Source of the DNA: Pseudaminobacter soli (ex Zhang et al. 2022)
Lineage (GTDB): Bacteria; Pseudomonadota; Alphaproteobacteria; Rhizobiales; Rhizobiaceae
Reading direction: 5' to 3'
Length of the DNA: 64,000 bases
Assembly: GCF_014595955.1 (NCBI RefSeq)
Contig: NZ_JABVCF010000003.1
Location: 310,001 to 374,000 of the forward strand
A program made the translations under genes and the position numbers. Shown here piece by piece: positions 14,856 through 54,070 of the stretch. The number at the start of each line of letters is the position of its first letter. Within the stretch, counting starts at the first letter, position 1. The notes below the pieces were generated by a model. It was not told where the DNA came from and did no database searches. It was given only the letters and a program-made list of their open reading frames with translations.

Positions 14856-14906
14856 GATTGAAATTCTGGTGCTGCGGCAGCGCCATTGCGGACGAGGCTC
14901 CCTTCC

Positions 14907-16376: not shown

Positions 16377-17085
16377 AGCGTCGGCCATGGCCGCTGTCAC
16401 GGTTGATCTTCACGAACTGCCGACGCGGGAAGCGCTCGCCGAGGAGCTTTCGCAGAAGGTGGCGTATGTCCTGACCGCCGCGATCGAACGGCGCGGCAAG
16501 GCCCTGCTTGCCGTGTCCGGCGGAACGACGCCGGCCCTGTTCTTCCGCACCCTGTCGGATGCGCATATCGACTGGCCTCGCGTGACGGTCACGCTGGTCG
16601 ACGAACGGTTCGTGCCGGAGGACTCACCGCGGTCGAACGCACGGCTTGCGCGCGAGAACCTCCTGCAGGGAAAGGCGGCGGCTGCCGGTTTCACCGGACT
16701 TTTCCGCGAAGGCATGACCATTGAAACGGCGGCAGCCGAAGCGGATGGCGTGTTGCGCAAACTTGGGTTGCCCATCGACGCCGTCGTGCTCGGCATGGGT
16801 GGGGACGGCCATACAGCTTCGTTCTTCCCCGATGCCGATCAGTTGCCGGCCCTGCTTTCGCCTACAAACGAGGCGGTTGTCGCCCCTGTTCACGCGACAA
16901 GCGCCGGCGAGCCGCGGCTGACGCTGACCATGCCGGCGATTATCGGCGCGCCGTTCGTCGCGCTCCACATCGAGGGCGAAGCCAAGCGTCAGGTGCTGGC
17001 CTCGGTGCTGCGCGGCAAGGATCTGCCGATCCGCGCGGTCTTCGAGCACGCGCGAAAACCTGTCGAGGTTTTCTGGGCTCCCTGA
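16366..17085 (+). CDS. pgl: 6-phosphogluconolactonase
   Basis: Hydrolyses the lactone made by Zwf to 6-phosphogluconate. The protein has the NagB-like fold motifs [25 protein letters not shown] and [17 protein letters not shown], all typical of Pgl. Two starts are possible: ATG at 16366, which overlaps the zwf stop by 11 nt (239 residues), or ATG at 16387 ([12 protein letters not shown], 232 residues), which fits the usual family length slightly better. Overlap with zwf indicates translational coupling. Confidence 0.94.
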
Positions 17086-17141
17086 ATTCCGCAGGTCACC
17101 GTCCTCCCACGGAAGACCCGCACCATAGAGGAAGGTTTGCA

Positions 17142-39638: not shown

Positions 39639-40412
39639 ATGCCTGCTGAAACAGTCTTCGCGGCCGAGTTGTCTTGGCCGGACTATGATGCGAAGGTGCG
39701 CGACGGTTCCGTGCCTATCCTGGTGCCGATCGGCTCCATGGAGCAGCACGGCCATCACATGCCGATGCATGTCGACGTGCTCCTTCCCGTCGAATTCGCG
39801 CGGCGCGCTGCCAGCTCTGTTGGCGCCCTGGTGGCGCCGCCTTTCACCTACGGTTACAAGTCGCATCAGAAATCCGGCGGCGGCAATCATCTGCCGGGCA
39901 CCACCAGCCTGGACGGCGCAACGCTGGTGGCGGCGCTGCGCGACGTCATCAAGGAATTCGCCCGTCACGGGGTCAGGAAGATCTGCCTCGTCAACGGGCA
40001 CTTCGAAAATTCCTGGTTCATCGTCGAAGGCATCGACCTGGCTCTCCGGGAACTGCGCTGGGGCGGCGTCGACGACATGAAGATCGTGGTGCTCTCCTAT
40101 TGGGATTTCGTCGACAAGCAGACGATCGCTCGGCTTTATCCGGATGGTTTCACCGGCTGGGATCTCGAGCATGGCGGCGTGCTCGAGACATCGCTGATGC
40201 TCGCCCTCTATCCGCATCTGGTGAATGTCGACCGCGCCGTCGATCACGCCCCGGCGAGCTTTCCACCCTACGACGTCTATCCGCCAAAGCCGAAGTGGAC
40301 GCCGAAGAGCGGCACCCTCTCCTCACCGAAGGAGGCCTCGAAGGAAAAGGGCGAGATCCTGCTCGACATCTGCACGCGCGGCATCATCGAAGCGTTGAAG
40401 GCGGAATTTTGA
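39639..40412 (+). CDS. Creatininase (creatinine amidohydrolase)
   Basis: The 257-residue metalloenzyme opens the ring of creatinine to give creatine. Metal ligands of the creatininase fold are visible: Glu35 and His37 in GSMEQHG, Asp46 in MHVDVLLP, His121 in NGHFEN and Glu123. GWDLEHGGVLETSLMLALYP is the C-terminal conserved block. It is followed by a strong terminator and lies opposite a creatinase gene, which makes creatinine the most likely substrate within this broad amidohydrolase family. Confidence 0.9.
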   Translation: MPAETVFAAELSWPDYDAKVRDGSVPILVPIGSMEQHGHHMPMHVDVLLPVEFARRAASSVGALVAPPFTYGYKSHQKSGGGNHLPGTTSLDGATLVAALRDVIKEFARHGVRKICLVNGHFENSWFIVEGIDLALRELRWGGVDDMKIVVLSYWDFVDKQTIARLYPDGFTGWDLEHGGVLETSLMLALYPHLVNVDRAVDHAPASFPPYDVYPPKPKWTPKSGTLSSPKEASKEKGEILLDICTRGIIEALKAEF

Positions 40413-40430
40413 AACCGATCAACACAAGCA

Positions 40431-40462
40431 AAGGGCCGCGAGAATGTCGCGGCCCTTCTTTT
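40431..40462 (+). terminator. Rho-independent terminator after the creatininase gene
   Basis: The arms AAGGGCCGCGA (40431-40441) and TCGCGGCCCTT (40447-40457) form a perfect stem closed by GAATG and followed by CTTTT. It lies 19 nt after the stop. Confidence 0.9.
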
Positions 40463-40689
40463 CGACCCAAATAGTATCGCAACCCGTCAAACGCTGTGCC
40501 GTGGAAGGTCCGCCTGCTCACGATGCTCTGCGTCTACCGGGTTCGACGCTTCGCACGAGGTCCCAAGCATCAGCCTTCTTATCCATCCGCCAAGACCGCT
40601 TCGGGGCGAAATAGTCTCGCGGCGCGGAGCGCAGCGGTCACGCCAACCCGCCGGCAGCGGCGGGCAATCGTGCGGAATGACCGGGGCCA

Positions 40690-41916
40690 TCAGTTCCGGA
40701 TGACGTTGTGCTCGGGTCCGAACGGGAAGCCGCTGATGTTATCGGCCCCATCTTCCTTGACGATGAGGATGTCATGCTCGCGGTAGCCGCCGGCGCCCGG
40801 AACACCCTCGGGCAGCATCACCATCGGCTCCATCGACACGACCATGCCGGGCTTCAGGACCGTGTCGATGTCCTCGCGCAGTTCCACGCCGGCCTCGCGG
40901 CCGTAGTAGTGGCAGAGCACGCCGAAGGAGTGGCCGTAGCCGAAGGAGCGGTACTTCAACAGGTCCCACTGCCGGTACATGTCGTTGAGCTCCAGCGCGA
41001 TGTCCTTGCAGCGCGCGCCCGGCTTGATGAGTTCGAGACCGCGGCGGTGCACGGCGACGTTCTTCTCCCAGATGTCGAGGCTGGCGTCATCGACGTGGTC
41101 GCAGAACAGCGTGCGCTCCAGCGCCGTGTAGTAGCCGAAGATCATCGGAAATGTGTTGAGCGACAGGATATCGCCCGACTGGATCACACGGTTGGTGACC
41201 GGGTTGTGCGCGCCGTCGGTGTTGATGCCCGACTGGAACCAGGTCCAGGTGTCCATCAGTTCGACGAAGGGGAACGATTTGGCGATCTCGCGGATCATCG
41301 CATTGGTGGTGGCGATCGCCACCTCGTGCTCGGGTACGCCGGCCTTGATGGCCGCCGCGCAGGCGGCACCGCCGACGTCACAGATGCGCGCGCCCTCACG
41401 GATCAGCTTGTGCTCCTCCGCCGACTTGATGGTGCGCATCCACATCGACGGCTGGCCGACATCGACAAACTCGACGCCGGGCAGCGCCTCTTCGAGCTGG
41501 CGGCGGAAGTCGAGCGAGATATGGTCGAACTCGATGCCGATCCGCTTGGCGCCGGGGGTGAGTTGGCGCACGGCCTGGTAGTAGTTGTCGCGGCGCCAGT
41601 CGGTGTAGGTGATGTTGTCGCCGAAGCTGCGGCGCCACGGCTGGCCGCCATCGATGCCGGCGGAGATGGTGGTCGCCTTGTCATGGTCGATGACCATGCC
41701 GTACTTGCGGCCGAAATAGCAGTACAGCCAGCCGGAATAGTAGTTGATGCAGTGATAGGAGGTGAACAGCGCCGCATCGACATTGTTCTTGGCCATCCAG
41801 CCGCGAACGTCGTTCTGGCGGCGGCTCATCTCGGCGTCCGAGAACGGGGAGAATTCTTTCTCGCCATTGTGCCACTTCATCACGTGCAGCATATCGTCGG
41901 TGACAGGCGTGCTCAT
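40690..41916 (-). CDS. Creatinase (creatine amidinohydrolase)
   Basis: A 408-residue pita-bread-fold enzyme hydrolysing creatine to sarcosine and urea. It closely follows remembered Pseudomonas creatinase: FTSYHCINYYSGWLYCYFGR, ISAGIDGGQPWRR, MDTWTWFQSGINTDGAHNPVT (catalytic His237), FGYGHSFGVLCHYYGREAGVELREDIDTVL and MEPMVMLPEGVPGAGGYREHDIL. The metal ligands of related aminopeptidases are not needed in this family. It is convergent with creatininase, forming the two-step route from creatinine to sarcosine. Sarcosine oxidation and urease genes are not in the window. Confidence 0.95.
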   Translation of the reverse strand: MSTPVTDDMLHVMKWHNGEKEFSPFSDAEMSRRQNDVRGWMAKNNVDAALFTSYHCINYYSGWLYCYFGRKYGMVIDHDKATTISAGIDGGQPWRRSFGDNITYTDWRRDNYYQAVRQLTPGAKRIGIEFDHISLDFRRQLEEALPGVEFVDVGQPSMWMRTIKSAEEHKLIREGARICDVGGAACAAAIKAGVPEHEVAIATTNAMIREIAKSFPFVELMDTWTWFQSGINTDGAHNPVTNRVIQSGDILSLNTFPMIFGYYTALERTLFCDHVDDASLDIWEKNVAVHRRGLELIKPGARCKDIALELNDMYRQWDLLKYRSFGYGHSFGVLCHYYGREAGVELREDIDTVLKPGMVVSMEPMVMLPEGVPGAGGYREHDILIVKEDGADNISGFPFGPEHNVIRN

Positions 41917-42194: not shown

Positions 42195-43391
42195 CTAGTC
42201 GGAGCCGCCCTGTTCTTCCACCTTGAACGCTTCGAGGACCTCGTAACAGGCCGCAAGCGGGTGGTAGTCCGTCTTCGCCGCAGGACTCTTCTCGTTGCTG
42301 TACTTGTTGCCAGCCGCGTCGAGGACGCGGAACCAGCCGCCGTAGCGATGGTCGACGAAATGGCGATCGGCATACCGCCAATGCCGGTCGTACCAGTCCC
42401 AGTACTCCGGATTGCCTGTACGCAGGGCCAGAAGTGCGGCCGCCGCGATCGCCTCGGCGCTGACCCAGTAGTAGCGGTCGGTGTCGAGGATGGTCCCGTC
42501 GGGTGCGAAGGCATAGTCGATGCCTCCCGTCGCCGGATCGAAGGCTTTGTTCATAGCCACCCGGAAGAGCCGCTCCGCGGTCGGTAGGTGCCAGGGCTCG
42601 GGCCGGTAGCGCTCAAGAATGACGAGGAGCTTGGCCCACTCGACGAAGTGGCCCGGCAGGTAGCCGTAGGGCTTGAACAAGTCCTTGGGATTGTCGCGAT
42701 TGAACTCCCAATCCGGCGTCCAGTCGGTGCGATAGTGCTCCCAGATCAGTCCGTCGCTCGCCAGGTCGACGCAGATCCGGCGCGCCAGCGTTGCGGCGCG
42801 CGCGATGTAGCGCTCCTCGCCGGTCGCCTCGTAGGCGGCGATCATCGCCTCGCACATATGCATGTTGCAGTTCTGGCCGCGATAGGCCGAGACGGCGGAC
42901 CAGTCTCCCGCCGCGATCTCGTCGACATAGAGCCGAGCCTCCGGCTCCCGGAAGCGCCTTTCGAGAAGGTCGTAGGTCTCGGCGACCACCTCCGCCGCCG
43001 TCGGGATGCCGGCCCTGGCGGCGCCGGCAGCCGCCAGCAGGACGAAGGCGTGGCCGTAGCAATGGCGGGTCGGATCGGCGACGCGGGTCTCGTCCAGCAC
43101 CCAGGCGTAGCCGCCATCGGGCTGCCGATGATGATTGGCGAGGAATTTCAGCCCGTGCGAGGCCGCCTCGCGAAACGCCTCCTCGTCGAACAGCATGCTG
43201 CAGAGCGCGAAATTGTAGGTGAAGCGGCAGGTCCCGACGAGATGCTTGGTACGGGCATCGAAGATGGTGCCATCGTCTAGGAACTGGTTGATGAACCCGC
43301 CGTGGCGGCGATCGATGCAGGCCGGGTGGTAGAAGTCGATGATGCTGTGGATCTGATCTCGCAAGAAAGCCTTGTCTCGATAGTTCGGCAT
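42195..43391 (-). CDS. AGE-family sugar 2-epimerase/isomerase
   Basis: A 398-residue (alpha/alpha)6-barrel protein of the N-acylglucosamine 2-epimerase family. Family features include GGFINQFLDDG, CRFTYNFALCSML, RHCYGHAFVLLAAAGAARAG with a catalytic-type histidine, YRGQNCNMHMCEAMIAAYEATG, PGHFVEWAKLLVIL and DYHPLAACYEVLEAF. Relatives interconvert mannose/fructose, mannose/glucose or cellobiose. GGAGGGGGAG precedes the ATG. It is the last gene of the sugar operon that begins near 53 kb. Confidence 0.88.
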   Translation of the reverse strand: MPNYRDKAFLRDQIHSIIDFYHPACIDRRHGGFINQFLDDGTIFDARTKHLVGTCRFTYNFALCSMLFDEEAFREAASHGLKFLANHHRQPDGGYAWVLDETRVADPTRHCYGHAFVLLAAAGAARAGIPTAAEVVAETYDLLERRFREPEARLYVDEIAAGDWSAVSAYRGQNCNMHMCEAMIAAYEATGEERYIARAATLARRICVDLASDGLIWEHYRTDWTPDWEFNRDNPKDLFKPYGYLPGHFVEWAKLLVILERYRPEPWHLPTAERLFRVAMNKAFDPATGGIDYAFAPDGTILDTDRYYWVSAEAIAAAALLALRTGNPEYWDWYDRHWRYADRHFVDHRYGGWFRVLDAAGNKYSNEKSPAAKTDYHPLAACYEVLEAFKVEEQGGSD

Positions 43392-43415
43392 CGCTCCCCC
43401 TCCCCTTCCCTTCAG

Positions 43416-44429
43416 CTATCCGAGCGCGCTGCAGGCGATCCGGTAGCGCGTGACGAACGGAGCATCGGGGCTCAGCGCGATCGTGGTTGCCGTACCGCTT
43501 CCGGAAAGTGGATTCGGTCCCGCCGACGCGGCAGGCCCAAGGTCGAACGCCGCAGCGATCGGCTCGACGCCAAGCCCGCGGAAACGGCCGTTCCACGGTG
43601 GGAAGCGGCGGCCCTGCGCCGAAATCCAGAGGAGACAGGAAGGGAGATGGGGGGCGTCCCATTCCTGTGTGACGACGTAGCCGTCGTCGGGGTAGGTCAG
43701 CGCGATGCTGCCATCGAGGCCGGTCAGCAGCGCGAGATCCTCGCCTTCCGAGGGAAAGGGCAGTGCGCTCAGATCGAGCTTCGTACCCACGGCCGAGAGC
43801 AGCATCCCGGGAGCCGCGTTCCGCTGGTCCGGCTTCAGGACAGTGCGCCCGTGCTCGACGTCCATCGGAAAGGTCCAGGCACGTGCCCCCGGCTTCAGCT
43901 CGAGGAGAACGGAGCCGGGCCGCACAGGCAACCGGTAGACTGGATGGAAGCCGAAGGACGTCCTGCAGGCTTTTCGCGCACGGATCGTCAGGGAGAACTC
44001 GATCGCCGGCGCAGCATCGGAAAGAGCGATCGTCCGTTCCAGGCCCGCGATCGCATGCCCCTCGGGATAATCGATGCCGATGGTGATCGAATTGCCGCCA
44101 TGCGCGACCAGATGCCAGTGGTGGTTTGAGGAGAAGCCGTGCGGATGCTCGTCATGCACCGCGTCGACCCGCGCCGCCTCGCTCCGCCAATCCGAAGGCA
44201 GGCCGGGGCGCGACGCGTCGGCCCCGAACGGCACGCAGGGCCATTCACCGCGCAGGTGCCGCAGGATGCCGGGCCGGTCGGGTAGATCCTCCTCATCCCA
44301 AGGCGCGACGACGAATGGCTGCACCTCCCGATCGCCGAGGCGGAAAATGGCCGGCCCGAGCATGCCGCCAAGGCTCTGCACCTCGGCGCCGCCGTGCCGG
44401 CCCGTAATCTTCCAAACCTCGCCTCTCAC
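43416..44429 (-). CDS. Aldose 1-epimerase family protein
   Basis: A 337-residue beta-sandwich protein of the galactose mutarotase superfamily. A conserved HGFSSNHHWHLV block and SFGFHPVYRLP provide the histidines expected for anomer interconversion, and WDAPHLPSCLLWISAQGRRFPPWNGRFRGLGVEPIAAAFDL forms the C-terminal core. The start is GTG 44429, overlapping the GntR stop (GTGA). It probably supplies the correct anomer to the operon's dehydrogenase or epimerase. Confidence 0.82.
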   Translation of the reverse strand: MRGEVWKITGRHGGAEVQSLGGMLGPAIFRLGDREVQPFVVAPWDEEDLPDRPGILRHLRGEWPCVPFGADASRPGLPSDWRSEAARVDAVHDEHPHGFSSNHHWHLVAHGGNSITIGIDYPEGHAIAGLERTIALSDAAPAIEFSLTIRARKACRTSFGFHPVYRLPVRPGSVLLELKPGARAWTFPMDVEHGRTVLKPDQRNAAPGMLLSAVGTKLDLSALPFPSEGEDLALLTGLDGSIALTYPDDGYVVTQEWDAPHLPSCLLWISAQGRRFPPWNGRFRGLGVEPIAAAFDLGPAASAGPNPLSGSGTATTIALSPDAPFVTRYRIACSALG

Positions 44430-45211
44430 GAGGGAGCCCGCTCTGCGGAGTGATCGCCCGCATCATGCCTCGGGCCGGTGCGGCTCTCGAAATACTCGGG
44501 ATAGCGCTCCTTAACGACGTCGAGGACCTCGAAGATGCGGCGAAGATGCGAGCGCATGGCGTTCTCCGCCTCCAGCGCGTCCGCCGCCTCCAGGGCCTCG
44601 ACGATGCGCCTGTGCTGCCCCAGTACGACAGACATGCTGTCCAGCCGCGGGAAGGAAAGGAAGCGGAAGCGGTCCATGTGGAGCTTCGCGGCGCTGATGT
44701 CGGCCCAGATGCCAGGGAAGCCGGCATGCGCAGCGATGTGCTGATGGAAAAGCTCGTCGGACTTGTAGAAGCGGCGGTCGTCGGAGATCGAGGCGAACGT
44801 CTCCTGAATGGCGAGTTCGCCCTTGAGCGCCCTGATCAGTTCGTCGCGTCGCGGGCTCTCCACCGCCCGCTTGATCAGCCCGACCTCGAGGGATTCGCGC
44901 AGGAACTGCGACTTCTCCAGATCGGCTATGCGCAGCGGCGCAACCATGCTTCCACGCTGGGGATAGATGTCGATCAGTCCGAGACCCGCCAACCGTGCGA
45001 GCGCCTCGCGGACCGGCGTGCGGCTGATCCCGAGCGCCTCCGACATCGCCTTCTCGGAAACGAGTTCGTTCGGTTTCAGCCTGAAGGTGAGGATCTGGTC
45101 GAGCAGGATGTCGAATGTACGCGCCCCGACCGATGCGCCCGTAATTCCAATCTCAGTCAAGCGCCGTTCGTCCTGTCTCGTTCCCGCGGACGCACCCATA
45201 TCGATACTCAT
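44426..45211 (-). CDS. GntR-family regulator, FCD (FadR-like) subfamily
   Basis: A 261-residue protein with an N-terminal winged helix (LDQILTFRLKPNELVSEKAMSEALGISRTPVREALARLAGLGLIDIYPQRGSMVAP) and an all-helical FCD effector domain with candidate metal ligands (SDELFHQHIAAHAG; GQHRRIVEAL; MRSHLRRIFEVLDVV). The ATG at 45211 overlaps the permease stop and its TGA overlaps the next gene, so it is embedded in the operon. It is the leading candidate to bind the ACTACCATGGTAGT palindromes at 50.3 and 53.1 kb. Confidence 0.9.
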   Translation of the reverse strand: MSIDMGASAGTRQDERRLTEIGITGASVGARTFDILLDQILTFRLKPNELVSEKAMSEALGISRTPVREALARLAGLGLIDIYPQRGSMVAPLRIADLEKSQFLRESLEVGLIKRAVESPRRDELIRALKGELAIQETFASISDDRRFYKSDELFHQHIAAHAGFPGIWADISAAKLHMDRFRFLSFPRLDSMSVVLGQHRRIVEALEAADALEAENAMRSHLRRIFEVLDVVKERYPEYFESRTGPRHDAGDHSAERAPS

Positions 45212-46092
45212 AGGTTCTGCAACTTCATGCCGTTCATGAAATGCCTGCGCAGCAAGAAGAACAAGACGACTGTCGGCAGGCTGGCAAGCAGGGTCGCGGT
45301 CATCACCACGTTCGGCGTCTGCGCGGCATAGCTTCCCTGCAGCACCATCAGCCCGTTCATCAGCGAGCGCACCTCCTCGCGGCTGGTGAGCACCATCGAG
45401 AACAGCAGGTCGTTCCACACCCAGGTGAATTGGATCAGGAATAGGGCGGTCATCGGCCCCCAGCAATTGGGCAGGACGATAGAATGGAAGATGCGGAACT
45501 CGGAGCAGCCGTCGAGGCGCGCGGCTTCGTCCATCTCGCGTGGCAGGCCGGCCATGTAGTTGCGCAGCACGAGGACAGGAAAGGGGATGCAGATGGCCGT
45601 GTAGAACAGGATCATGCCGAGGCGGCTGTTGTTCAGCCCCAGCTTGTTGTAGCCGATGAACAGGGGGATCAGGTACATCTGGAGGGGAAAGATCGTCCCC
45701 GAGAAGATCAGCATGAACCAAAAATTCTTGCCGCGGAAATCGATCCTGGTCAGGCCGTAGGCGGCAAGCGCCGCGATGAAGACGGCGGCTCCCGCACCGA
45801 CGATGCCGTAGAGTGCGGAATTGAACATCCCCTCGCCCATGCGAGTCTTGGTCCATGCCTCGTAGACGTTTTCGAGAATGGGCTGCCACGATTGAGGGAG
45901 CGCGAGCGGATGGCCGAGGCCGTATTCCGCGTTGGTTTTGAACACCGAAACGAGCAGATAGTAGAACGGCACCAGCCAAGCGATCGCCAGCAGCGCGGCG
46001 AACAGCCAGATCAGGGCGCTCGAACCCTGTGCGCGCCGCTCCTTGGCGGCAATCGCGTCCAGGTCGAGTTTTGCGATATCGAGGGCAGCCAT
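45208..46092 (-). CDS. Sugar ABC transporter permease (MalG-like, CUT1)
   Basis: A 294-residue permease with six helices. It ends with the RRHFMNGMKLQNL tail typical of CUT1 MalG-type subunits and has the EAA loop MDEAARLDGCSEFRIFHSIVLP. The ATG at 46092 with GGGGGAA upstream is chosen over an upstream start at 46203 because the latter would overlap the first permease. It is coupled to the GntR gene by an ATGA overlap. Confidence 0.92.
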   Translation of the reverse strand: MAALDIAKLDLDAIAAKERRAQGSSALIWLFAALLAIAWLVPFYYLLVSVFKTNAEYGLGHPLALPQSWQPILENVYEAWTKTRMGEGMFNSALYGIVGAGAAVFIAALAAYGLTRIDFRGKNFWFMLIFSGTIFPLQMYLIPLFIGYNKLGLNNSRLGMILFYTAICIPFPVLVLRNYMAGLPREMDEAARLDGCSEFRIFHSIVLPNCWGPMTALFLIQFTWVWNDLLFSMVLTSREEVRSLMNGLMVLQGSYAAQTPNVVMTATLLASLPTVVLFFLLRRHFMNGMKLQNL

Positions 46093-46103
46093 GCTCGTTC
46101 CCC

Positions 46104-47051
46104 CTAGCGCCGATCGAGCCGCTGCTGCAGGGCGCCGAGCAGCCAACTGATGCTGAAGGCGATGACGCCAAGCACGACCGCGATCGCGGCACCGTAACCC
46201 CAATAGCCGGCGCGGAACGACTCCCAGTACTGGTTTACCGCGAGCGTCAGGGTAGAGCGGTTGGGGAAGTCGCGGCCCATCACCCAGACAAGGTCGAACG
46301 ACGTGAAGCCTGCCAGCACCGAGACGGTGGCGACGACCAGGATGGTCGGCGCCAGCAAGGGCAGCACGATGTGCCGGAACACCCCCCAGCGCGAGGCGCC
46401 GTCGACCTTGGCGGCTTCGATGGGTTCCGAGGGAAGCGCGTTCAAGCCCAGCAGGAGCAACACCATGGTCAGGCCGACCTGCTGCCAGATGTGCGTGACG
46501 ATCATCGCAGGGGTGGCGATTCCCTCTTCGTAGAGCCAGCGGCGGGTGAGCCCTTCAAGCCCGATCGCGCGGAGCCCCGAGTTGAGAATGCCCTCGTTGG
46601 CATAGACGTAGTACCAGACCACCCCGACGGCGGTGGCCGAGAACATTCTGGGCAGGAAATAGATGCTCTTGAAGGTCTCTTCGCCCTTCAGCCCCTTCAC
46701 CAAGAGCGCCAGCGCCAGGCCGAGCATCGCCGGCAGGAAGAAGGAGGCCACCACCCAGAGGATGGTGTTGCCGGTGGCGGTCGAGAAATTCGGATTCGAC
46801 AGCAGTCGCTGGTAGTTGGCGAGCCCGGCATACTGGTCGAGGCCGGAGAATTTTGCCCACTTCGTCATCGACGCGTAGACGTTGAAGGCGACCGGCAACA
46901 GCAGGAACACGCCGACGAAGATCAGCGCAGGCGACATGAAGGCGAGCGCGGTCCAGAGCCGTCTGCGCGCCCGGCGACGTTCCTCGCGCATCATCAGTTC
47001 GATCGGCGGAAGCGAGGCCAACTGCTCTGTTCGTGTCATCGAAGCGTTCAC
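46104..47051 (-). CDS. Sugar ABC transporter permease (MalF-like, CUT1)
   Basis: A 315-residue permease with a long basic N-terminus (MMREERRRARRR) and six predicted helices. The EAA loop reads PIEAAKVDGASRWGVFRHIVLP. The GTG start at 47051 has GGGGA 8 nt upstream; ATG 47039 is possible. It lies 11 nt upstream of the MalG-like gene and after the hairpin that follows the binding-protein gene. Confidence 0.9.
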   Translation of the reverse strand: MNASMTRTEQLASLPPIELMMREERRRARRRLWTALAFMSPALIFVGVFLLLPVAFNVYASMTKWAKFSGLDQYAGLANYQRLLSNPNFSTATGNTILWVVASFFLPAMLGLALALLVKGLKGEETFKSIYFLPRMFSATAVGVVWYYVYANEGILNSGLRAIGLEGLTRRWLYEEGIATPAMIVTHIWQQVGLTMVLLLLGLNALPSEPIEAAKVDGASRWGVFRHIVLPLLAPTILVVATVSVLAGFTSFDLVWVMGRDFPNRSTLTLAVNQYWESFRAGYWGYGAAIAVVLGVIAFSISWLLGALQQRLDRR

Positions 47052-47069
47052 GTGCTGTTTCCCCGGAGG

Positions 47070-47098
47070 GACGGCGGCGAAGGACCTTCGCCGCCGTC
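47070..47098. promoter_or_regulatory. Perfect inverted repeat between binding-protein and permease genes
   Basis: The arms GACGGCGGCGAAGG (47070-47083) and CCTTCGCCGCCGTC (47085-47098) pair completely around one central base. On the transcript it begins 8 nt after the binding-protein stop and ends 18 nt before the permease start. Confidence 0.7.
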
Positions 47099-47106
47099 AG
47101 GCCTTA

Positions 47107-48348
47107 TCACTGGCGGGAGGCCCAGTACTGCGAGGCGATGGCTTCCATGTTCTTCATGGCCGTCTCGGCCTGCTCCTTGGTCGGGTTGGTCATGAAGCGG
47201 TTCATCTCCTCGACGGCCGGCAGGACGATCTCGGAGGGCGACGCCTCCCAGTAGCGGGTCATGGAGCGGTAGTTGCCATCGGCGGCCGTCTTCGCGATCT
47301 CGCCGATTATGGTGTTCGGCACCTTGGCGTTCTTGTTGCCTGCATAGAGGCCGGGGGTGGTCGCCCAGGCATCCATCGCGGCGGCGCTCAGGTACCAGTC
47401 GGCGAACTTCATCACGTCCGGGTTCTCGGCGCCCTTGATGCTGATCACCAGCGGCGACGCCTCGACGATCACGACGTTCGGCACCGACGCGTCGACGTTG
47501 GGCATGATGAAGCCGCCAAAATCGGTCTCGGCCTTGAGGCCGCCGGCTTCGACGAGGCCGATGTTCCAATCGCCGGCCAGGTACATGGCGGCCTTGCCGC
47601 GGGCGAAGTCGAGTTGCTCTTCCTGGCTCGCCGGGTCGGTGAAATAGCCCTTGGCGTAGAGGTCGCCCCAGATCTCGAAGACCTTCTTCACCGGCTCGTC
47701 GGTGTACTTCAGCTTGCCTTCGTTCAGCGCGACATAGGCGTCCGGATTGGTGCGGATCAGCAGTTCCTCGAACCAGACGAAGCCGCGCCAGCCTTCCTGC
47801 AGGGAAGCGTTGAAGGGCGTGATGCCGGCGGCCTTCAGCTTCTCACAGGTGGCCATCAGTTCGTCCCAGGTCGTAGGCGGCGCCGAGATGCCGGCCTTCT
47901 CGAACAGCGACTTGTTGTAGAGCACGATCCAGCGGTTGATGCCTGTCGGCATGCCGTAGATGTGGCCGTTGACCTTGAACGGTTCGGCCGACGAGGCGTC
48001 ATATTCGCCTGCCGCAATCTTCTTTTCCCAAAGCTCATCCAGCGGTGCGATCTGGCCGCTCTCGACGATCTCGGCGAGCTTCGTGCCGTTCCACCAGGTG
48101 AAGGCCTGCGGCGCGTCGCCCGAAAGCAGGCTCTGCTGGATGAAGGCCTGGAACTGGTCGGTCGCATAGGCGCTGAACTTCAGGTCGATGTCGGCCTTCT
48201 TGGCCGCCTCAGTGAGGCCGTCCCAGCCGGCCTGGTAGAACGGCTTGTCGTGGAAAACGGTGACTTCGTCGGCCTGAGCAGCGGGGGCAAGCCCCAATGC
48301 GGTTGCAGTTAGTGCAATGGCCGCCAGGCCCCTGGTAAACATGTTCAT
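47107..48348 (-). CDS. Sugar ABC transporter substrate-binding protein (extracellular family 1)
   Basis: A 413-residue periplasmic protein with signal peptide MNMFTRGLAAIALTATALGLAPAAQA. Mature blocks include PQAFTWWNGTKLAEIVESGQIAPLDELW, NGHIYGMPTGINRWIVLYNKSLFEKAG and GKAAMYLAGDWNIGLV, as in glucose/mannose-type CUT1 binding proteins. It lies 25 nt downstream of the ATPase gene and before the two permeases, giving a complete transporter. The ligand is not deducible; hexose or its oxidised derivative is likely from operon content. Confidence 0.92.
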   Translation of the reverse strand: MNMFTRGLAAIALTATALGLAPAAQADEVTVFHDKPFYQAGWDGLTEAAKKADIDLKFSAYATDQFQAFIQQSLLSGDAPQAFTWWNGTKLAEIVESGQIAPLDELWEKKIAAGEYDASSAEPFKVNGHIYGMPTGINRWIVLYNKSLFEKAGISAPPTTWDELMATCEKLKAAGITPFNASLQEGWRGFVWFEELLIRTNPDAYVALNEGKLKYTDEPVKKVFEIWGDLYAKGYFTDPASQEEQLDFARGKAAMYLAGDWNIGLVEAGGLKAETDFGGFIMPNVDASVPNVVIVEASPLVISIKGAENPDVMKFADWYLSAAAMDAWATTPGLYAGNKNAKVPNTIIGEIAKTAADGNYRSMTRYWEASPSEIVLPAVEEMNRFMTNPTKEQAETAMKNMEAIASQYWASRQ

Positions 48349-48373
48349 GCCCTCTCCTCCTGTGTCGGTCGCT

Positions 48374-49480
48374 TCATTCAGCGCGCAACGAAGAGCCCGT
48401 CGCCGCGTCGAATAGGTGAATGCGATGCCGGTCGAGCTCGAAGCGCAGCACCTCTCCCTCGCGCACCGGCTTCGGCCGCTGCATGCGGCTGGTCACTTCC
48501 CCGCCGGCGAACGCGGCAAAGACGAGCGTCTCGTTGCCTAGCGACTCGGTAAGCGTGACGGGCGCGCTGAATTCGTACGGCGCGTCGGGACGCAGGCCGT
48601 GCCCTTCCGGGACGATCTCCTCCGGACGTGCGCCGAACGTCACAGGGCGACCCAGTTCGAGACCGGCGAACCGCCCGGCGTCGATGCGCACCCGGATGTC
48701 GCCGCTCAGTTCGACTGCGAGCGCGCCATTACCGTCGCTGACAATCTTGCCTGGCAGCAGGTTCATGGCGGGCGCACCGATGAAGCGGGCGACGAACTCG
48801 TTTGCCGGGCGCTCGAAGACGTCGAGCGGCGCACCCTCCTGCTCGATGAAGCCGTCGCGCATGATCACGATCTTGTCGGCCATCGTCATGGCCTCAGTCT
48901 GGTCGTGGGTGACGTAGATCGCTGTGGTCCCTAGCTGATGGTGCAGCCGCTTGATCTCCACGCGCATGGCGCTGCGCAGTTGGGCGTCGAGGTTGGACAG
49001 CGGCTCGTCGAAAAGGAATACCTCCGGCTCGCGCACGATCGCGCGGCCCATGGCGACGCGCTGCCGCTGGCCGCCCGAAAGCTGCGATGTACGGCGGTCG
49101 AGATAGTCGGTAAGCCGCAGGATGTCGGCCGCGCGCCGCACCCGCTTCTCGATCTCCGCGCGCGGCACTTTCGCGACCTTCAGCGCGAACGACATGTTCT
49201 CGAAGACCGTCATGTGCGGGTAGAGCGCGTAGGATTGGAACACCATCGCGATCCCGCGGTCGCGCGCCGGCAGATCGTTCACCGTCCGGCCGCTGATCCT
49301 GATCTCGCCGTGGGAGACGGATTCAAGGCCCGCAACCATGCGCAAGGTCGTGGACTTGCCGCAACCCGATGGGCCTACGAGCACGACAAAACTGCCCTTC
49401 TCGATCTCGAGGTCGATCCCCTTGACCACGATCTGGCGGCCATAGACCTTGACCAGTTGCCGAAGGCTGACGTGGGACAC
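48374..49480 (-). CDS. Sugar ABC transporter ATP-binding protein (UgpC/MsmX-like)
   Basis: A 368-residue ATPase with Walker [10 protein letters not shown], signature [36 protein letters not shown], switch [18 protein letters not shown], and a C-terminal MalK-type regulatory domain ([24 protein letters not shown]). The start is GTG 49480 with AAGGAG 9 nt upstream inside the preceding SDR gene end. It is co-transcribed with SDR and binding protein. Confidence 0.93.
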
Positions 49481-49486
49481 AGGCCC

Positions 49487-50272
49487 CTACTCCTTCCGCG
49501 GCGAGCCGCTGAGGCGGGAAAGCAGGCCGCCGTCGACGCGGACCACTTCGCCCGTCACGAAGGAGGCTTCGTCCGACAGCAGGAAGGCGACGACTGCCGC
49601 CACTTCCTCGGGGCGCGCGGTGCGGCCGAGCGGATGCATGCCGTTGAGCGTACGCCAGACCTCGTCGGGGTCTTCGTTGAGCTTTACGGCATCCTGGAGC
49701 ATCGGGGTGTTGACCGCCCCGGGTGCCACCGCGTTCACCCGAACGCCATGGATCGCGTAATCCACGGCCATCGATTTCACCAGGCCGATCAGGCCGTGCT
49801 TGGCGGTCGAGTAGGCCAGCACACCCTCCTGGCTGGCGAGACCCTGGACGGAGGCCATGTGGACGATTGCGCCGTGGCTTTCGCGCAAGAGCGGCATGGC
49901 GGCGCGGGAGAGGAAATAGGCCGCCTTGAGGTTGACGTTCATCACCTCGTCCCACTGCTCCTCCTCGGTCGTCTCGACCGTCCCGTAGCGCTGGATGCCG
50001 GCATTGTGGGACAACATGTCGAGCCCACCGTATTCCTGGCGCGCGAGATCGGCAGCGCGCGCGGCAACCTGCGGGTCGGCCGTGGAGCCGTGAACGGTCG
50101 CGACCGCGGCACCTGTCGATCGAAGGTTCTCGGCAACCACCTCCATCTCGTCGCGGGCGAGATCGACCAGCACCAGCTTCACGTCCTGGGAGGCAAGCTT
50201 CTCGGCCACCGCGCGCCCTATGCCCATCGCGGCCCCGGTGACGATGGCGCGTTTCGCAGTCTCAGTTGCCAT
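49487..50272 (-). CDS. SDR-family sugar dehydrogenase
   Basis: A 261-residue short-chain dehydrogenase with TGAAMGIG near residues 12-19, SHNAG, the catalytic serine in HMASVQG, YSTAK, and GEVVRVDGG at the C-terminus. It resembles aldose dehydrogenases of the rhamnose/fucose type, which make aldonolactones. In this operon it is the obvious first oxidative enzyme, feeding the lactonase at 53.1 kb. The ATG at 50272 has GGGAGGAG upstream. A palindromic operator lies 31 nt upstream of the start. Confidence 0.88.
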
Positions 50273-50303
50273 GCTGCTCTCCTCCCGAAACTTTCTATAG
50301 GCT

Positions 50304-50317
50304 ACTACCATGGTAGT
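50304..50317. promoter_or_regulatory. Palindromic operator ACTACCATGGTAGT (copy 1)
   Basis: A perfect 14-nt palindrome located 31 bp upstream of the SDR start and touching the TGA of the aldolase frame. The same palindrome recurs at 53125-53140. Position and identity of the two copies support a regulator-binding site serving an internal promoter for SDR and the transporter genes. Confidence 0.75.
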
Positions 50318-50968
50318 CAAACATGCGTCACGAATGCGGCGAGAGGCAGCCCGTGACCGTTGCAGCGACCTACGCATACGGACCGAAATTTCCGCCGGCT
50401 CCGCCCCGCCGCCAGCATCCAGGTGCCGCCGACCGACGCTATATTGGACAGCCGCGCGTATCCGGGCAGGAGTTCGAAGGTGATCTTTCCGCTTGGCATG
50501 AAGGCCACGTCCGGGAAGACACGTGCGAAATCTTCCAGTACGTCCGAGCCGCCTGCCGCCTCCGCCGGATAGAATTTTAGCAGGCGGACGCCCGGGCGCC
50601 GCGCCACCATGACCTCGCTTGCAGTCTGGACACCGGGCACCATTCGGCACGCCACGGCGCGCCGCATGCGCCACAAGATCGGCGTCCAGGCCGGGTGAGA
50701 TGGTGAAAGCCGCACCGGCGGCGACCGCGTCGTCAAATTGCGCGGTCGACAGAACCGTCCCGGCGCCGAACAGGATCTCGGGAAACCGCTCTATTCCGGC
50801 GCGCAGGGCCTCCAGCGCGACCGGGGTCCGCAAGACGATCTCGATCCCTCGCGCGCCGCCCGCGGCGAGCGCCTCGATCTGTTGCAGTGTCTGGCCGACC
50901 GAATTCGGGACCAGAATCGGCATGACCGCGATCTGGCGGATCCGGGCGGCGAGTTCGTCGTGGTTCAT
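50317..50968 (-). pseudogene. eda: 2-keto-3-deoxy-6-phosphogluconate (KDPG) aldolase, frameshifted
   Basis: The 5' part from ATG 50968 reads a normal aldolase ([73 protein letters not shown]) and then loses frame at 50643-50644. The next frame continues immediately with [28 protein letters not shown], holding the Schiff-base lysine, then FMPSGKI and [14 protein letters not shown]. Deleting one T of the TT pair at 50643-50644 restores the gene. The C-terminus after WMLAAG is atypical. Its ATG overlaps the kinase stop. It is either a recent lesion or a sequence error. Confidence 0.85.
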
Positions 50969-51873
50969 CGATCCCCACCCCGCATGAACGCCAGCGTCTC
51001 CTCCCGCGTCGGGGCGCCGAGCCTGCCCCCGAAGCGCCGGCACTTCAGCGCCGCGGCTGCACTCGCAAAGGCCAGAGCCTCTTCTTCGTCACGATCCTCG
51101 GCCAGGGCCAGAGCAAACGTGCCACAGACGTCGCCAGCGGCGAGCGTGTCCACCGCTTCCACTTGCGGCGACGGGACGTAACCAAGCTTGCCACTTCGTA
51201 CGAACCAGCTTCCCCGCGCTCCGTCGGTCACCGCAACGAAGACGCCCGTTTTCTTGTGCAGCGAGGCGGCTGCTTCCTCAGCGGATGCGGTATCGCCGGC
51301 AAGAATGCATGCAGCCGGCAGCGATGCCACGACATGGGTCGCGAGCGGCAATAGCCGTTCCAGGACCGACTTCGGCGCCACATCCGCGTCGAAGACGGCC
51401 GCTATGCCGACGTCCCGTGCAGCTTCCAGCGCAAGAGCGGCAGCCCCGGGCCAGCGCGCGTCGACCATCACCGCGCCGTAGCCCGCAAGATCGAAGGGGA
51501 AGGATGCGGGATCAGACTGCGTCAACGGGTCGTAGTAGGGCACCACGATGCGCTCGCCCTCGGCATCGACCAGAATGGTCGAGATCGCCGACTTGCCGCC
51601 CTCTACGCCACGAACATGCGAGCAGTCGACGCGCTCCTTGCGCATCTGCTCGATCATCTCGCGCCCGACGGCGTCGTTGCCAACGCTGGACCACAGCGAC
51701 ACGCTGCCTCCTTGGCGGGTCGCCGCGGTGGCCGCACTTGCGGCCATCCCCGCTGCGATCTGCATCATTTCGGACGGGAGATACTTCCCTCCCCGGCACG
51801 GCAAAGCTTCGAGCCTGAAGATCGTGTCATAGGTCAGGGCGCCGACGCAGAGCAGGCGGGCCGGATCATTCAC
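50965..51873 (-). CDS. PfkB-family carbohydrate kinase, probable 2-keto-3-deoxygluconate kinase
   Basis: A 302-residue ribokinase-fold protein with [29 protein letters not shown] at the N-terminus and the anion-hole/catalytic motif [16 protein letters not shown] (catalytic Asp in AAGD) near residue 245. The start is GTG 51873, overlapping the uxuA stop (GTGA), and its stop overlaps the aldolase start (ATGA). Between a mannonate dehydratase and a KDPG aldolase the substrate should be KDG, although sequence alone does not prove it. Confidence 0.85.
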
Positions 51874-53066
51874 AGGCGATATCCCCGCTGGCTGGCGATC
51901 GCCGTCATCACGCCCCGCAGTTCCGCCAGTCCACGCAGGCGCCCCACGACCGGATAGCCCGGATGCGTCTTGCGGGTGAGGTCGTCGATCAGATCGTGAC
52001 CATGGTCGGGCCGGAACGGAATTTGCGCCCAGGGCTCGCCAGCATCGGCACGCCGCTGCTGCTCTTCAAGAAGTGCGGCGACCACTGCGACCATGTCGAC
52101 ATCGCCACCAAGATGATCCGACTCCATGAAGGAGCCATCGGCGTCCTTCTTCACATTGCGCAGATGCGCGAATTGGATCTTGTTGGCGAAGCGGCGCGCG
52201 ATTCCCGGCACGTCGTTCGCCGGATTGGCCCCGAGCGAGCCAGAGCACAGGGTCAGTCCGCTGCAGTCCGACGGCACGGCATCCAGGATGAAGGCGATAT
52301 CGTCAGCGTTCTTGACGATCCGGCACAGGCCCGCAAGGTCGCGCGGCGGGTCGTCGGGATGGATGCACATGGTCACGCCGGCCTCCTCGGCCGCGGGCAG
52401 CACATTCTGCAGGAACTGGACGAGATTGGCGCGCAGCGTTTCGTGCGTCACGCTCGACTGCTCGGCGATAACCTCGCGCAGTTCGGTGATCTCGTAGCGC
52501 TTGAAGGCTCCGGGTAGCCCAGCCATGATGTTGGCGAGCAGCCGGTCCTTGGCCTCTTTAGGCGTCGTCTCGAACCACTCGCTGGCCCGCTGCAGGACCG
52601 TCGGAGCGTATTCCCGCTCAGCCCCCTTCCGCTGGAGCATGTAGCAGTCGAACGCGGCCAACTCATGCATGTTGAGGCGCAGCGCACGTCCACCGCCGGG
52701 GAGTGGCACCGCAAGGTCCGTGCGCGTCCAGTCGAGGATCAGCATGAAGTTGTAGCAGACCGTGCGGATGCCGCAGGCGCCGAGATTGCGAAGCGTCTGC
52801 GCAAAGTTGCCGTAAAGCCGCTCGAGGTCGCCGCGGCCGAGCTTAATGTCCTCGTGGACAGGAACGCTTTCCACGACGCTCCACCGCAGACTCATGGATT
52901 GATCGGCCTCGATCAGCGCCTTTCGCTCGCGGATCGCCTCGATCGGCCAGACCTCGCCATAGGGGATGTCATGCAGCGCGGTGACGATCCCCGCCGCGCC
53001 GGCCTGCCTGGCATGCGCCAGCGTCGCTGCATCGTTCGGTCCGAACCACCGCCAAGTCTGTTCCAT
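51870..53066 (-). CDS. uxuA: Mannonate dehydratase
   Basis: A 398-residue enzyme dehydrating D-mannonate to 2-keto-3-deoxygluconate. UxuA hallmarks are the N-terminal MEQTWRWFGPNDAATLAHARQAGA, GIRTVCYNFM, VTMCIHPDDPP, CSGSLGANPAND, FAHLRNVK and FRPDHGHD, which include the metal-binding Cys and His residues. It is the first gene of the long minus-strand operon and is divergent from the lactonase, with the second operator palindrome 59-74 nt upstream of its start. Confidence 0.96.
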   Translation of the reverse strand: MEQTWRWFGPNDAATLAHARQAGAAGIVTALHDIPYGEVWPIEAIRERKALIEADQSMSLRWSVVESVPVHEDIKLGRGDLERLYGNFAQTLRNLGACGIRTVCYNFMLILDWTRTDLAVPLPGGGRALRLNMHELAAFDCYMLQRKGAEREYAPTVLQRASEWFETTPKEAKDRLLANIMAGLPGAFKRYEITELREVIAEQSSVTHETLRANLVQFLQNVLPAAEEAGVTMCIHPDDPPRDLAGLCRIVKNADDIAFILDAVPSDCSGLTLCSGSLGANPANDVPGIARRFANKIQFAHLRNVKKDADGSFMESDHLGGDVDMVAVVAALLEEQQRRADAGEPWAQIPFRPDHGHDLIDDLTRKTHPGYPVVGRLRGLAELRGVMTAIASQRGYRL

Positions 53067-53124
53067 GCACCCCTCCGCGAGCGGTCCAACATGTTGACCG
53101 CCGGTCAGTTGCAGCTATATTGGC

Positions 53125-53140
53125 GACTACCATGGTAGTC
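53125..53140. promoter_or_regulatory. Palindromic operator GACTACCATGGTAGTC (copy 2), overlapping the lactonase start codon
   Basis: A perfect 16-nt palindrome in the uxuA-lactonase intergenic region. Its centre contains the ATG at 53132-53134 used by the lactonase gene. A repressor bound here could block both divergent promoters. The core of 14 nt is identical to copy 1 at 50304-50317. Confidence 0.78.
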
Positions 53141-54070
53141 AATCGGACATCCCAGCCCAGCGACAACTCACAGCCTGCCGACGGAAAACCCCGGCGGCTC
53201 GGCAATCTGAGATGCATCGTCGGCGAGAGCCTCATCTGGTCGCCGCGCGACGGAAAGCTCTTCTTCACCGATCTGGTGGGCAAGAGTTTTCACTCCTACG
53301 ATCCGGCGACAAGGGTATTCGAAAGCTGGGACGCACCGGAGTTCGCTACCTCGATCGGCATCCGCCGCGACGGCGGATTCGTGGTGGGTCTCGAACAGCG
53401 GATCTGCCTCTGGGAGCCGGGCGGGGACTTCGCGACTTTGGCGATTCCTGAGCCCGACAGACCGGGCAACCGGCTGAACGAGGGCGTCGTCGGCCCAGAC
53501 GGGGCATTCTGGGTCGGCACCATGGCGACCAACCTTCACTCGGACGGCACGCCGAAAGAGCAGGACGGCCCGTTGGGCGCCTACTACCGCGTCCGGCCGG
53601 ACGGCCGCGTCGAGCGGCTCACGCCGAACGAATATGGCATCACCAACACGATGGCGTGGTCGGCGGACGGAAAGTTCCTGACCGCCGATACAGTCGCGAA
53701 CACGATTCACTCGTTCCGCGTTGGCGACGACGGCCAGATCGGGAACCAGACAATCTTCGAGCAAGGCTTTCCGCGCGGCCTGCCGGACGGGTCCTGCATG
53801 GACGCGGAAGGCTTCCTGTGGAACTGCCGCGTGGCAGGAGGCAGTTGCGTTTCCCGCTTCGCGCCTGACGGGCGGCTCGACCGGATGGTGGAACTGCCGT
53901 GCGCTTGGCCGACAAGCTGCGCCTTCGGCGGTCCCGGACTCGACACGCTCTACGTGACCTCCGCGACCTTCACCATGTCCGAAGCCCATCTGGCGGCAAA
54001 TCCGCACGAAGGCGGCCTTTACGCGGTCGACGCGGGCGTGAAAGGCATCGCATCGTATCAGTTCGGCTGA
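53132..54070 (+). CDS. SMP-30/gluconolactonase/LRE family lactonase
   Basis: A 312-residue six-bladed beta-propeller. Metal and substrate residues are visible: Glu in CIVGESLIWSPRDGKLFFTD, Asn/Asp in RLNEGVVGPDGAFWVGTM, TNTMAWSADGKFLTADT and RGLPDGSCMDAEGFLWN. It hydrolyses sugar lactones to aldonic acids, the step between the SDR dehydrogenase and mannonate dehydratase of the opposite operon. The ATG at 53132 lies inside the operator palindrome; a TTG at 53120 is possible. No strong Shine-Dalgarno is visible for the ATG. Confidence 0.9.
   Translation: MVVNRTSQPSDNSQPADGKPRRLGNLRCIVGESLIWSPRDGKLFFTDLVGKSFHSYDPATRVFESWDAPEFATSIGIRRDGGFVVGLEQRICLWEPGGDFATLAIPEPDRPGNRLNEGVVGPDGAFWVGTMATNLHSDGTPKEQDGPLGAYYRVRPDGRVERLTPNEYGITNTMAWSADGKFLTADTVANTIHSFRVGDDGQIGNQTIFEQGFPRGLPDGSCMDAEGFLWNCRVAGGSCVSRFAPDGRLDRMVELPCAWPTSCAFGGPGLDTLYVTSATFTMSEAHLAANPHEGGLYAVDAGVKGIASYQFG

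Follow-up and report, generated by a model that had tools for sequence, protein, structure and literature searches.

A cluster of sugar-catabolic genes in Pseudaminobacter soli (Rhizobiaceae) is described here as a candidate oxidative route for D-mannose. The cluster lies at positions 42195-54070 of a stretch of 64,000 nucleotides (contig NZ_JABVCF010000003.1, positions 310,001 to 374,000), which is referred to as the window. On the minus strand, the genes follow each other in transcription order as uxuA, pfkB, a 2-keto-3-deoxy-6-phosphogluconate (KDPG) aldolase gene, a short-chain dehydrogenase/reductase (SDR) gene, the genes of a CUT1 transporter, gntR, a mutarotase-like gene and an AGE-family gene. 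A lactonase gene diverges from uxuA, and a palindrome is found once in front of uxuA and once in front of the SDR gene. Stretches of other genomes are given below by L numbers and whole genomes by G numbers.

Gene content of the cluster

42195-43391, minus strand: protein of the AGE family, a probable aldose-ketose isomerase akin to D-mannose isomerase (PDB 3gt5, 5x32)
43416-44429, minus strand: mutarotase-like protein (sub-threshold profile match to 3nre; low-confidence model)
44426-45184, minus strand: GntR/FCD regulator, predicted to bind both operators (Pfam GntR and FCD; start codon unsettled)
45208-46203, minus strand: permease, MalG type (Pfam BPD_transp_1; true start probably internal)
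46104-47051, minus strand: permease, MalF type (Pfam BPD_transp_1)
47107-48348, minus strand: sugar-binding protein (Pfam SBP_bac_8 and SBP_bac_1; PDB 7ehp, 3ooa)
48374-49480, minus strand: ATPase of a CUT1 ABC transporter, UgpC/MalK type (NF008653, 471.8 bits against a cut-off of 432)
49487-50272, minus strand: SDR with the motif NAGIQRYG (best PDB sequence match 3vtz; TG, Ser, Tyr and Lys motifs)
50304-50317: operator 2, palindrome ACTACCATGGTAGT, ahead of the SDR gene
50317-50968, minus strand: KDPG aldolase, Eda type (Pfam Aldolase split over two frames; break at ~50,640)
50965-51873, minus strand: PfkB-family kinase (Pfam PfkB; PDB 2rbc, 248 bits; 2-keto-3-deoxygluconate (KDG) kinase by context only)
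51870-53066, minus strand: D-mannonate dehydratase UxuA (TIGR00695, 465 bits against a cut-off of 199.55; PDB 4eac, 434 bits)
53120-54070, plus strand: lactonase of the SMP-30/gluconolactonase family (Pfam SGL, 233 bits; PDB 7plb, regucalcin)
53126-53139: operator 1, palindrome ACTACCATGGTAGT, between uxuA and the lactonase gene

The whole CUT1 transporter, made up of the ATPase, the binding protein and the two permeases, occupies 45208-49480 on the minus strand. An earlier annotation based on the letters alone (the sequence-only reading) had named the SDR, UxuA, PfkB, SMP-30, CUT1, GntR and AGE genes, and these identities were borne out by profile and structure-library searches. The same reading had named an aldose epimerase at 43416-44429. 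This protein has no Pfam or NCBIfam match, and a mutarotase-like character is suggested by a weak profile match to 3nre (E=0.076) and by a low-confidence model (predicted local distance difference test score 49) that matches mutarotases first.

The start codon of the SDR gene was read from the sequence. From the SDR gene to the AGE gene, the intergenic gaps range from -4 to 56 bases, which is compatible with a single transcript. The cluster as a whole does not form one operon, as had been proposed, since the lactonase gene lies on the opposite strand and there are two operators. Because the lactonase gene is divergent and a second operator stands in front of the SDR gene, the locus probably gives rise to three transcripts. 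The TTG start listed for the lactonase gene is doubtful, because operator 1 sits inside the 5' end of this open reading frame (ORF) and homologues align from residue 25; the real start codon probably lies farther downstream.

A predicted operator shared by uxuA and the SDR gene

The palindrome ACTACCATGGTAGT is 14 bases long, and its only exact copies in the 6.1-Mb genome are the two sites of the cluster. Near-copies with two mismatches occur in two places, on contigs 5 and 34. A promoter-like sequence, TTGACC-16-TATATT (53094-53121), is aimed at the lactonase gene, with one such site found against 0.6 expected from shuffled sequences. The operator at 53126-53139 lies just downstream, an arrangement that fits a repressor. 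A TTGACT on the opposite strand, read from the sequence, overlaps this promoter-like site.

A 12-mer core of the palindrome, CTACCATGGYAG, was searched for in seven whole genomes, using a pattern written after the upstream sequences of the related clusters L161-L164 had been seen. G000, G345, G654, G675 and G608 each have it at just two sites, one at the uxuA promoter and one at the SDR promoter, with C at the variable base (Y) in the SDR site of G654 and G675. The pattern read backward, as a control, gave 0 or 1 match per strand. G156 and G218 have no copy of the core in their whole genomes, and no GntR gene was matched in their cluster stretches. A common predicted operator thus stands ahead of both the uxuA and the SDR halves in all five searched genomes that have the cluster together with gntR. 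In L043, the single core copy is ahead of the SDR gene, and the uxuA promoter lies beyond the contig. Taken together, a predicted shared operator joins the uxuA and SDR promoters, and the locus is, by this sequence evidence, a conserved and jointly regulated pathway cluster.

The core is also found in L169, ahead of the SDR gene of an enolase-type cluster. The same core, CTACCATGGTAG, was also found at the Zn-dehydrogenase gene of three L-gulonate-type clusters (L129 14823-15903, L130 3984-5074 and L131 from 3869), which contain Zn-dehydrogenase, TRAP-like genes (recognised by translation only), UxuB, UxuA and GntR. The operator is therefore attributed to a broader set of GntR regulators linked to D-mannonate metabolism, and in the genome of the window it is confined to this cluster.

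Conservation of the cluster

A comparison of neighbourhoods, which had been proposed as a check on the sequence-only reading, has been run. The order uxuA-pfkB-aldolase-SDR-transporter-gntR is kept in L043, L162, L163 and L164, and L161 has the same order without pfkB. This recurrence indicates that the cluster is more than a chance grouping; the gene families, their conserved order and the shared operator are computational observations. L043 comes from a metagenome-assembled genome (MAG) of Chelativorans, is syntenic up to the contig limit (SDR 78% identical) and is the only one with the mutarotase-like and AGE genes downstream; its uxuA is cut by the contig end. L161-L164 encode UxuA (79-81%), the aldolase, the SDR (72-74%), the four transporter proteins and GntR. 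With L125 included, SDR homologues of 72-78% identity are present in L125, L043 and L161-L164.

When 297 genomes of the family, including that of the window, were searched for UxuA, 222 gave a match at E<=1e-30, and besides the window only G156 (79%) and G218 (80%) exceeded 66% identity. The stretch of G156 retains only the SDR, UxuA and a divergent SMP-30 gene. Its congener G218 has UxuA and SMP-30, with no SDR match at E<=1e-50 genome-wide. A divergent lactonase gene is also found in L125 and L126. In these two congeners, a reduced SDR-UxuA/SMP-30 island lies by a purA-like gene (L125 8654-11703, L126 7949-10148), and the second genome is without the SDR.

The SDR was found at E<=1e-68 in at least 18 of 397 genomes of the order, including its own, and in at least one of 385 genomes of the class, the one found being its own. 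These counts are lower bounds, as at most six first-look candidates were scored per genome and often more than 80 were present; G156, with an SDR at 73%, is outside the 18, either not drawn or missed. Among the 17 other genomes, UxuA is in the cluster in four (L161-L164), an enolase-superfamily match is adjacent to the SDR gene in seven (L165, L167-L170, L175 and L177), and neither was found in six, where the queries matched no dehydratase of either type (L166, L171-L174 and L176). Three of the seven enolase neighbours are confirmed by profile (L165, L168 and L169) and four rest on a tblastn match of 23-29%. A homologous transporter is present in the enolase clusters of L165 and L167-L169; L167 also has an AGE gene (56%) and L165 an SMP-30 gene (40%). 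The confirmed enolase genes lie at L165 4144-5388, L168 10395-11618 and L169 10372-11613; for L168, the nearest PDB entries are 3vc5 and 4it1.

Among the best 80 of 572 confirmed SDR relatives, many on stretches that stop at contig ends, three are accompanied by a match to the window UxuA, namely L043, Conexibacter (L044) and an Acidobacteria MAG (L052). The UxuA genes of L044 and L052 are directly behind the SDR gene or within 2 kb, and these SDRs are more distant. In L085, part of the L044 protein is matched ~6 kb away. Plasmid records gave one SDR relative, from Nonomuraea (48%), with no UxuA match in its stretch, as well as UxuA proteins from Azospirillum and Skermanella whose gene neighbourhoods differ. 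A different sugar-acid cluster was seen in L127 (9328-17547) and L128 (9280-16969), with a UxuA at 65-66%, a different CUT1 transporter and a different SDR; L127 adds an enolase-family dehydratase and L128 an SMP-30 gene.

Routes to D-mannonate

Since UxuA scores strongly with its equivalog model, D-mannonate is a likely intermediate. Two routes could lead the SDR to D-mannonate, namely oxidation of D-mannose or reduction of D-fructuronate. The best PDB sequence match of the SDR is 3vtz, and 2dtd/2dte/2dtx rank fifth among distinct PDB sequences; 3vtz and 2dtd are titled Thermoplasma aldohexose dehydrogenases. The NCBIfam aldose dehydrogenase model NF005007 ranks third (211 bits, cut-off of 341 not reached). 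The roles of the TG, Ser, Tyr and Lys motifs of the SDR and of the active-site motifs of UxuA are presumed. Oxidation is favoured as the predicted reaction because of these aldohexose-dehydrogenase relatives, the occurrence of such SDRs with two dehydratase families, the divergent lactonase, the AGE protein resembling D-mannose isomerase and the sugar ABC importer, which contrasts with the TRAP transporter in an annotated L-gulonate-type cluster of Skermanella. That the cluster oxidises some aldose at C1 to the UxuA substrate is considered likely.

Reduction of D-fructuronate would make this a hexuronate-type route, with the SDR as D-fructuronate reductase and the lactonase serving something else. 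SDR-type mannonate oxidoreductases exist in Bacillus, and uxaC is present in the genome. A related GntR and the same core occur at the UxuB-bearing clusters of L129-L131, and the L142 stretch, where UxaC and UxuB are both encoded, contains somewhere a core copy with one mismatch. The sequence-only reading had noted the absence of uxaC and uxuB, which holds for the locus and not for the genome: both are on contig 1, with a second uxuA (47% identical), a GntR gene and transporter genes. The genome therefore holds an ordinary hexuronate cluster besides this locus. No operator core within two mismatches was found in the 18-kb contig-1 stretch and no third exact site genome-wide; uxaC and uxuB under the same operator, which had been named as a sign of an ordinary hexuronate pathway, were looked for in this genome and not found. 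In addition, the NCBIfam matches listed for the SDR (25 of 237) include no model of a mannonate oxidoreductase, the SDR homologues of seven among the 17 other genomes adjoin an enolase-family match, as would be expected of an aldose dehydrogenase, and profile searches found no L-gulonate/L-idonate-type 5-dehydrogenase, UxuB or TRAP transporter among the cluster genes. The hexuronate-type route is thus judged improbable.

The relationships of UxuA bear on the same choice. In 18 UxuA contexts of other genomes (L125-L142), UxuB is present in 10, and 7 of those 10 also have UxaC. The L-gulonate-type gene set is annotated in L179 and was read in L129-L131. A tree of 34 UxuA rows groups the window with L125, L126 and L161-L164 in a single clade with support of 100/100, separate from the UxuAs beside UxaC/UxuB and from those beside L-gulonate genes. 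Thus the central idea of the sequence-only reading, oxidation of mannose or a C2 epimer and not hexuronate breakdown, gains independent support from the shared operator core, the separate UxuA clade, the SDRs beside two unrelated dehydratase families, the aldohexose-dehydrogenase relative and the AGE protein near D-mannose isomerase, with mannose still a proposed substrate.

The imported sugar

If C1 oxidation is accepted, the sugar that enters the cell may be something other than free mannose, such as a mannose oligosaccharide, fructose by way of the AGE protein, or another aldose with an aldonate that UxuAs of this clade accept. CUT1 transporters often carry oligosaccharides, and the binding protein is closest to chito-oligosaccharide and other sugar-binding proteins. 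An AGE isomerase would connect fructose and mannose. The SDR also has Gln at the position of Glu84 in AldT, the Thermoplasma aldohexose dehydrogenase, a residue which we take to contact the axial C2 hydroxyl of mannose. Conversely, profile searches found no glycosidase family above cut-off among the cluster genes (in the AGE protein, GH88 gives 24.5 bits, short of its cut-off of 26.6), and UxuA scores strongly in the mannonate dehydratase equivalog. An imported sugar other than free mannose is considered unlikely, if less so than the hexuronate-type route.

The AGE protein matches 3gt5 best (451 bits; deposited as N-acetylglucosamine 2-epimerase), with 5x32 second at 413 bits and YihS at ~150. 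The entry 5x32 has been named D-mannose isomerase of Marinomonas mediterranea, and a relative was tested there (PMC7762179). Among NCBIfam models, mannose isomerase NF051846 gives 216 bits (cut-off 600) and N-acylglucosamine and cellobiose 2-epimerase give 68 and 50, all below cut-off.

Two other sugars were considered and rejected. Sulfoquinovose breakdown by the sulfoglycolytic Entner-Doudoroff pathway was raised by YihV and YihS, which are among the relatives of the kinase and AGE proteins. Its hallmarks are sulfogluconate dehydratase, 2-keto-3,6-dideoxy-6-sulfogluconate aldolase and sulfoquinovosidase; none of these families was matched among the cluster genes in profile searches, and the AGE protein is far closer to 3gt5 and 5x32. 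An L-glucose/L-gluconate pathway was set aside because the cluster has no second keto-acid dehydrogenase.

A proposed oxidative pathway for D-mannose

With moderate confidence, the cluster is proposed to encode a semi-phosphorylative oxidative pathway, regulated and coupled to a transporter, that degrades D-mannose or a sugar turned into it. The substrate and direction of this route, its cofactor, the specificity of the kinase, and the repression with its effector are inferred as follows. The CUT1 transporter would import the sugar, the mutarotase-like protein may provide the correct anomer, and the AGE isomerase would interconvert D-mannose and D-fructose. The SDR would oxidise D-mannose at C1 with NAD to mannono-lactone, which would be opened to D-mannonate by the SMP-30 protein or by water. 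UxuA would then convert D-mannonate to KDG, the PfkB kinase would phosphorylate KDG to KDPG, and a KDPG aldolase would cleave KDPG to pyruvate and glyceraldehyde 3-phosphate. GntR may repress both promoters until a metabolite of the pathway, possibly mannonate or KDG, releases it.

A dedicated and modular bacterial regulon for D-mannose oxidation, defined by the operator, may exist as a counterpart of the archaeal route. In it, one SDR subfamily with NAGIQRYG and its CUT1 transporter would be joined either to UxuA, kinase and KDPG aldolase or to an enolase resembling glucarate dehydratase; such a regulon is considered about as likely as not.

Several observations weigh against a mannose pathway. 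The best NCBIfam match of the SDR is meso-2,3-butanediol dehydrogenase, at 220 bits for a cut-off of 270, and none of the 25 of 237 matches listed reaches its cut-off. Foldseek with the SDR model ranks AldT fifth, after Thermus and butanediol dehydrogenases; this comparison was dropped as substrate evidence because it does not discriminate. Both Thermoplasma enzymes show NAGIE, with Glu at the AldT Glu84 position, which is Gln in the window SDR and in all 17 aligned relatives (from L043, L125, L161-L171 and L174-L177). Among more distant SDRs, Gln is found in L044, L045 and L052 and Met in L046. The sister-cluster enolase comes closer to the model for glucarate dehydratase than to the one for ManD, a mannonate dehydratase, and is below both cut-offs; its use as an independent pointer to mannonate was dropped for this reason. 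The cluster UxuA (E<=1e-150) is in none of the three other genomes of the genus, and the AGE gene has been seen only in the window, L043 and L167. The kinase gives at most 48 bits with KDG-kinase models (cut-offs 400-440) and is closer to ribokinase and sulfofructose kinase (the latter at 162 bits in the PDB comparison); it is below every listed NCBIfam cut-off. Furthermore, pfkB is missing from the L161/G345 cluster.

The lactonase is the next point of this kind. It has the motifs GESLIW, TNTMAW and DGSCMD, presumably with their usual role, and an SMP-30 gene is also found in L165. The clusters of L161-L164 have no SMP-30 gene next to them, the whole genome of G345 is without an SMP-30 match at E<=1e-40, the best matches in G654 and G675 are at most 39%, and G608 has one at 55% on another contig. 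The lactonase had been counted as a core step of the chain. It is dispensable in the L161-L164 clusters, in agreement with the whole-genome searches, and confidence in the mannose pathway was lowered to its present moderate level as a result. Mannonolactone has been described as opening spontaneously (PMC6901390).

The local aldolase is broken, and the complete chain that had been read in the locus does not stand for this reason. The Pfam Aldolase match covers profile positions 3-100 in ORF 49487-51043, which holds the N-terminal part, and 88-183 in ORF 50317-50736, which holds the C-terminal part. The frame shift, located at ~50,640, had been missed in the sequence-only reading; the assignment to the KDPG aldolase family is upheld by Pfam, while the gene is not one open frame. 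A second frame change near the C-terminus is possible. The aldolase frame is uninterrupted in L043, L161, L162 and L163, and L164 is free of stops across the aligned 192 residues. With all five checked relatives in one frame, the break is either peculiar to this genome or a fault of the assembly. A second Eda-type gene was found on contig 51 of the same genome (Pfam, 244 bits, no internal stop), so KDPG cleavage is still feasible. Given the frameshift in the local copy, the last step is probably taken over by this eda-type gene elsewhere in the genome. The families of a candidate aldose dehydrogenase, an aldonate dehydratase, a PfkB kinase and a KDPG aldolase are encoded together, with the specificity of the dehydrogenase and kinase taken from context and the aldolase frameshifted here.

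The two-frame aldolase could mark loss of function in a decaying cluster of this strain. G218, which has UxuA and SMP-30 and no SDR, unlike its congener G156, would fit such a loss. However, the ten other minus-strand genes and the lactonase gene are open, both operators are perfect, the eda-type gene elsewhere can substitute, and an assembly error may be the cause of the frameshift. Decay is judged very unlikely.

Two other groups of genes were seen in the window. ORFs reading as zwf, pgl and edd, by translation only, lie at 14886-18968 on the plus strand, ~23 kb from the cluster; glucose normally enters the Entner-Doudoroff pathway through the products of these genes. Past the 3' end of the cluster, a creatininase-family gene on the plus strand and a creatinase-type M24 gene on the minus strand (39639-41916) look like a separate locus.

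Comparison with known systems

Oxidative pathways are known for many sugars, and a mannose-specific one was described as undiscovered in 2019 (PMC6901390). In the literature searched, which lay mostly outside subscription journals, no bacterial cytoplasmic oxidative mannose pathway was found, and the passages cited here contain no cytoplasmic operon of this kind in bacteria. With its importer, regulator and pair of conserved operators, a compact regulon in a bacterium would open the question of mannose oxidation to tests by knockout and growth. If the proposal is true, it would assign a function to an SDR subfamily and offer a clue to the substrate of the enolase group. It would also caution annotators that uxuA alone does not indicate use of glucuronate.

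Several bacterial systems share parts of the proposed route. The hexuronate (glucuronate) pathway UxaC-UxuB-UxuA has UxuA and the lower half in common with it, whereas UxaC and UxuB are encoded here in a separate cluster. The L-gulonate pathway of Haemophilus influenzae shares UxuA, the lower half from KDG to pyruvate and glyceraldehyde 3-phosphate, and D-mannonate as the branch metabolite, but entry is by L-gulonate dehydrogenase, UxuB and a TRAP transporter, none of which is in this cluster (PMC5788505). In Pseudomonas putida KT2440, fructose is similarly isomerised to mannose and oxidised to mannonate; the oxidation is by the periplasmic glucose dehydrogenase Gcd in electrode-driven anoxic culture, and mannonate accumulates outside the cell (PMC8313287). 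The L-glucose pathway of Luteolibacter LG18 is similar in its aldose dehydrogenase, dehydratase, KDG kinase and KDPG aldolase, and differs in its L-sugars, extra keto-acid steps, altronate-type dehydratase and pyrophosphate-using KDG kinase (PMC12632266).

The closest likenesses are in archaea. In the haloarchaeon Natronoglomus mannanivorans, a route from mannose by mannonate, KDG and KDPG to pyruvate and glyceraldehyde 3-phosphate has been predicted, as here; its dehydrogenase is uncertain, the dehydratase genes are with mannanases, and the rest are at separate loci (PMC10963439). For Thermoplasma, a mannose route has been proposed and its enzymes work in vitro in a cell-free AldT-ManD cascade (PMC6901390, 2019). 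The route of Thermoplasma acidophilum resembles the present cluster in combining an SDR aldohexose dehydrogenase with a mannonate dehydratase, and the AldT and ManD genes are adjacent in Thermoplasmatales (PMC6901390). It uses ManD, a KDG aldolase acting on unphosphorylated KDG and spontaneous lactone opening (PMC6901390). In contrast, the present cluster has a UxuA-type dehydratase, a kinase and KDPG aldolase, a lactonase, an importer, an isomerase and a regulator. The Thermoplasma ManD is presumably of the enolase type. An oxidative mannose route appears to have been proposed so far mainly for archaea, in Thermoplasma and haloarchaea.

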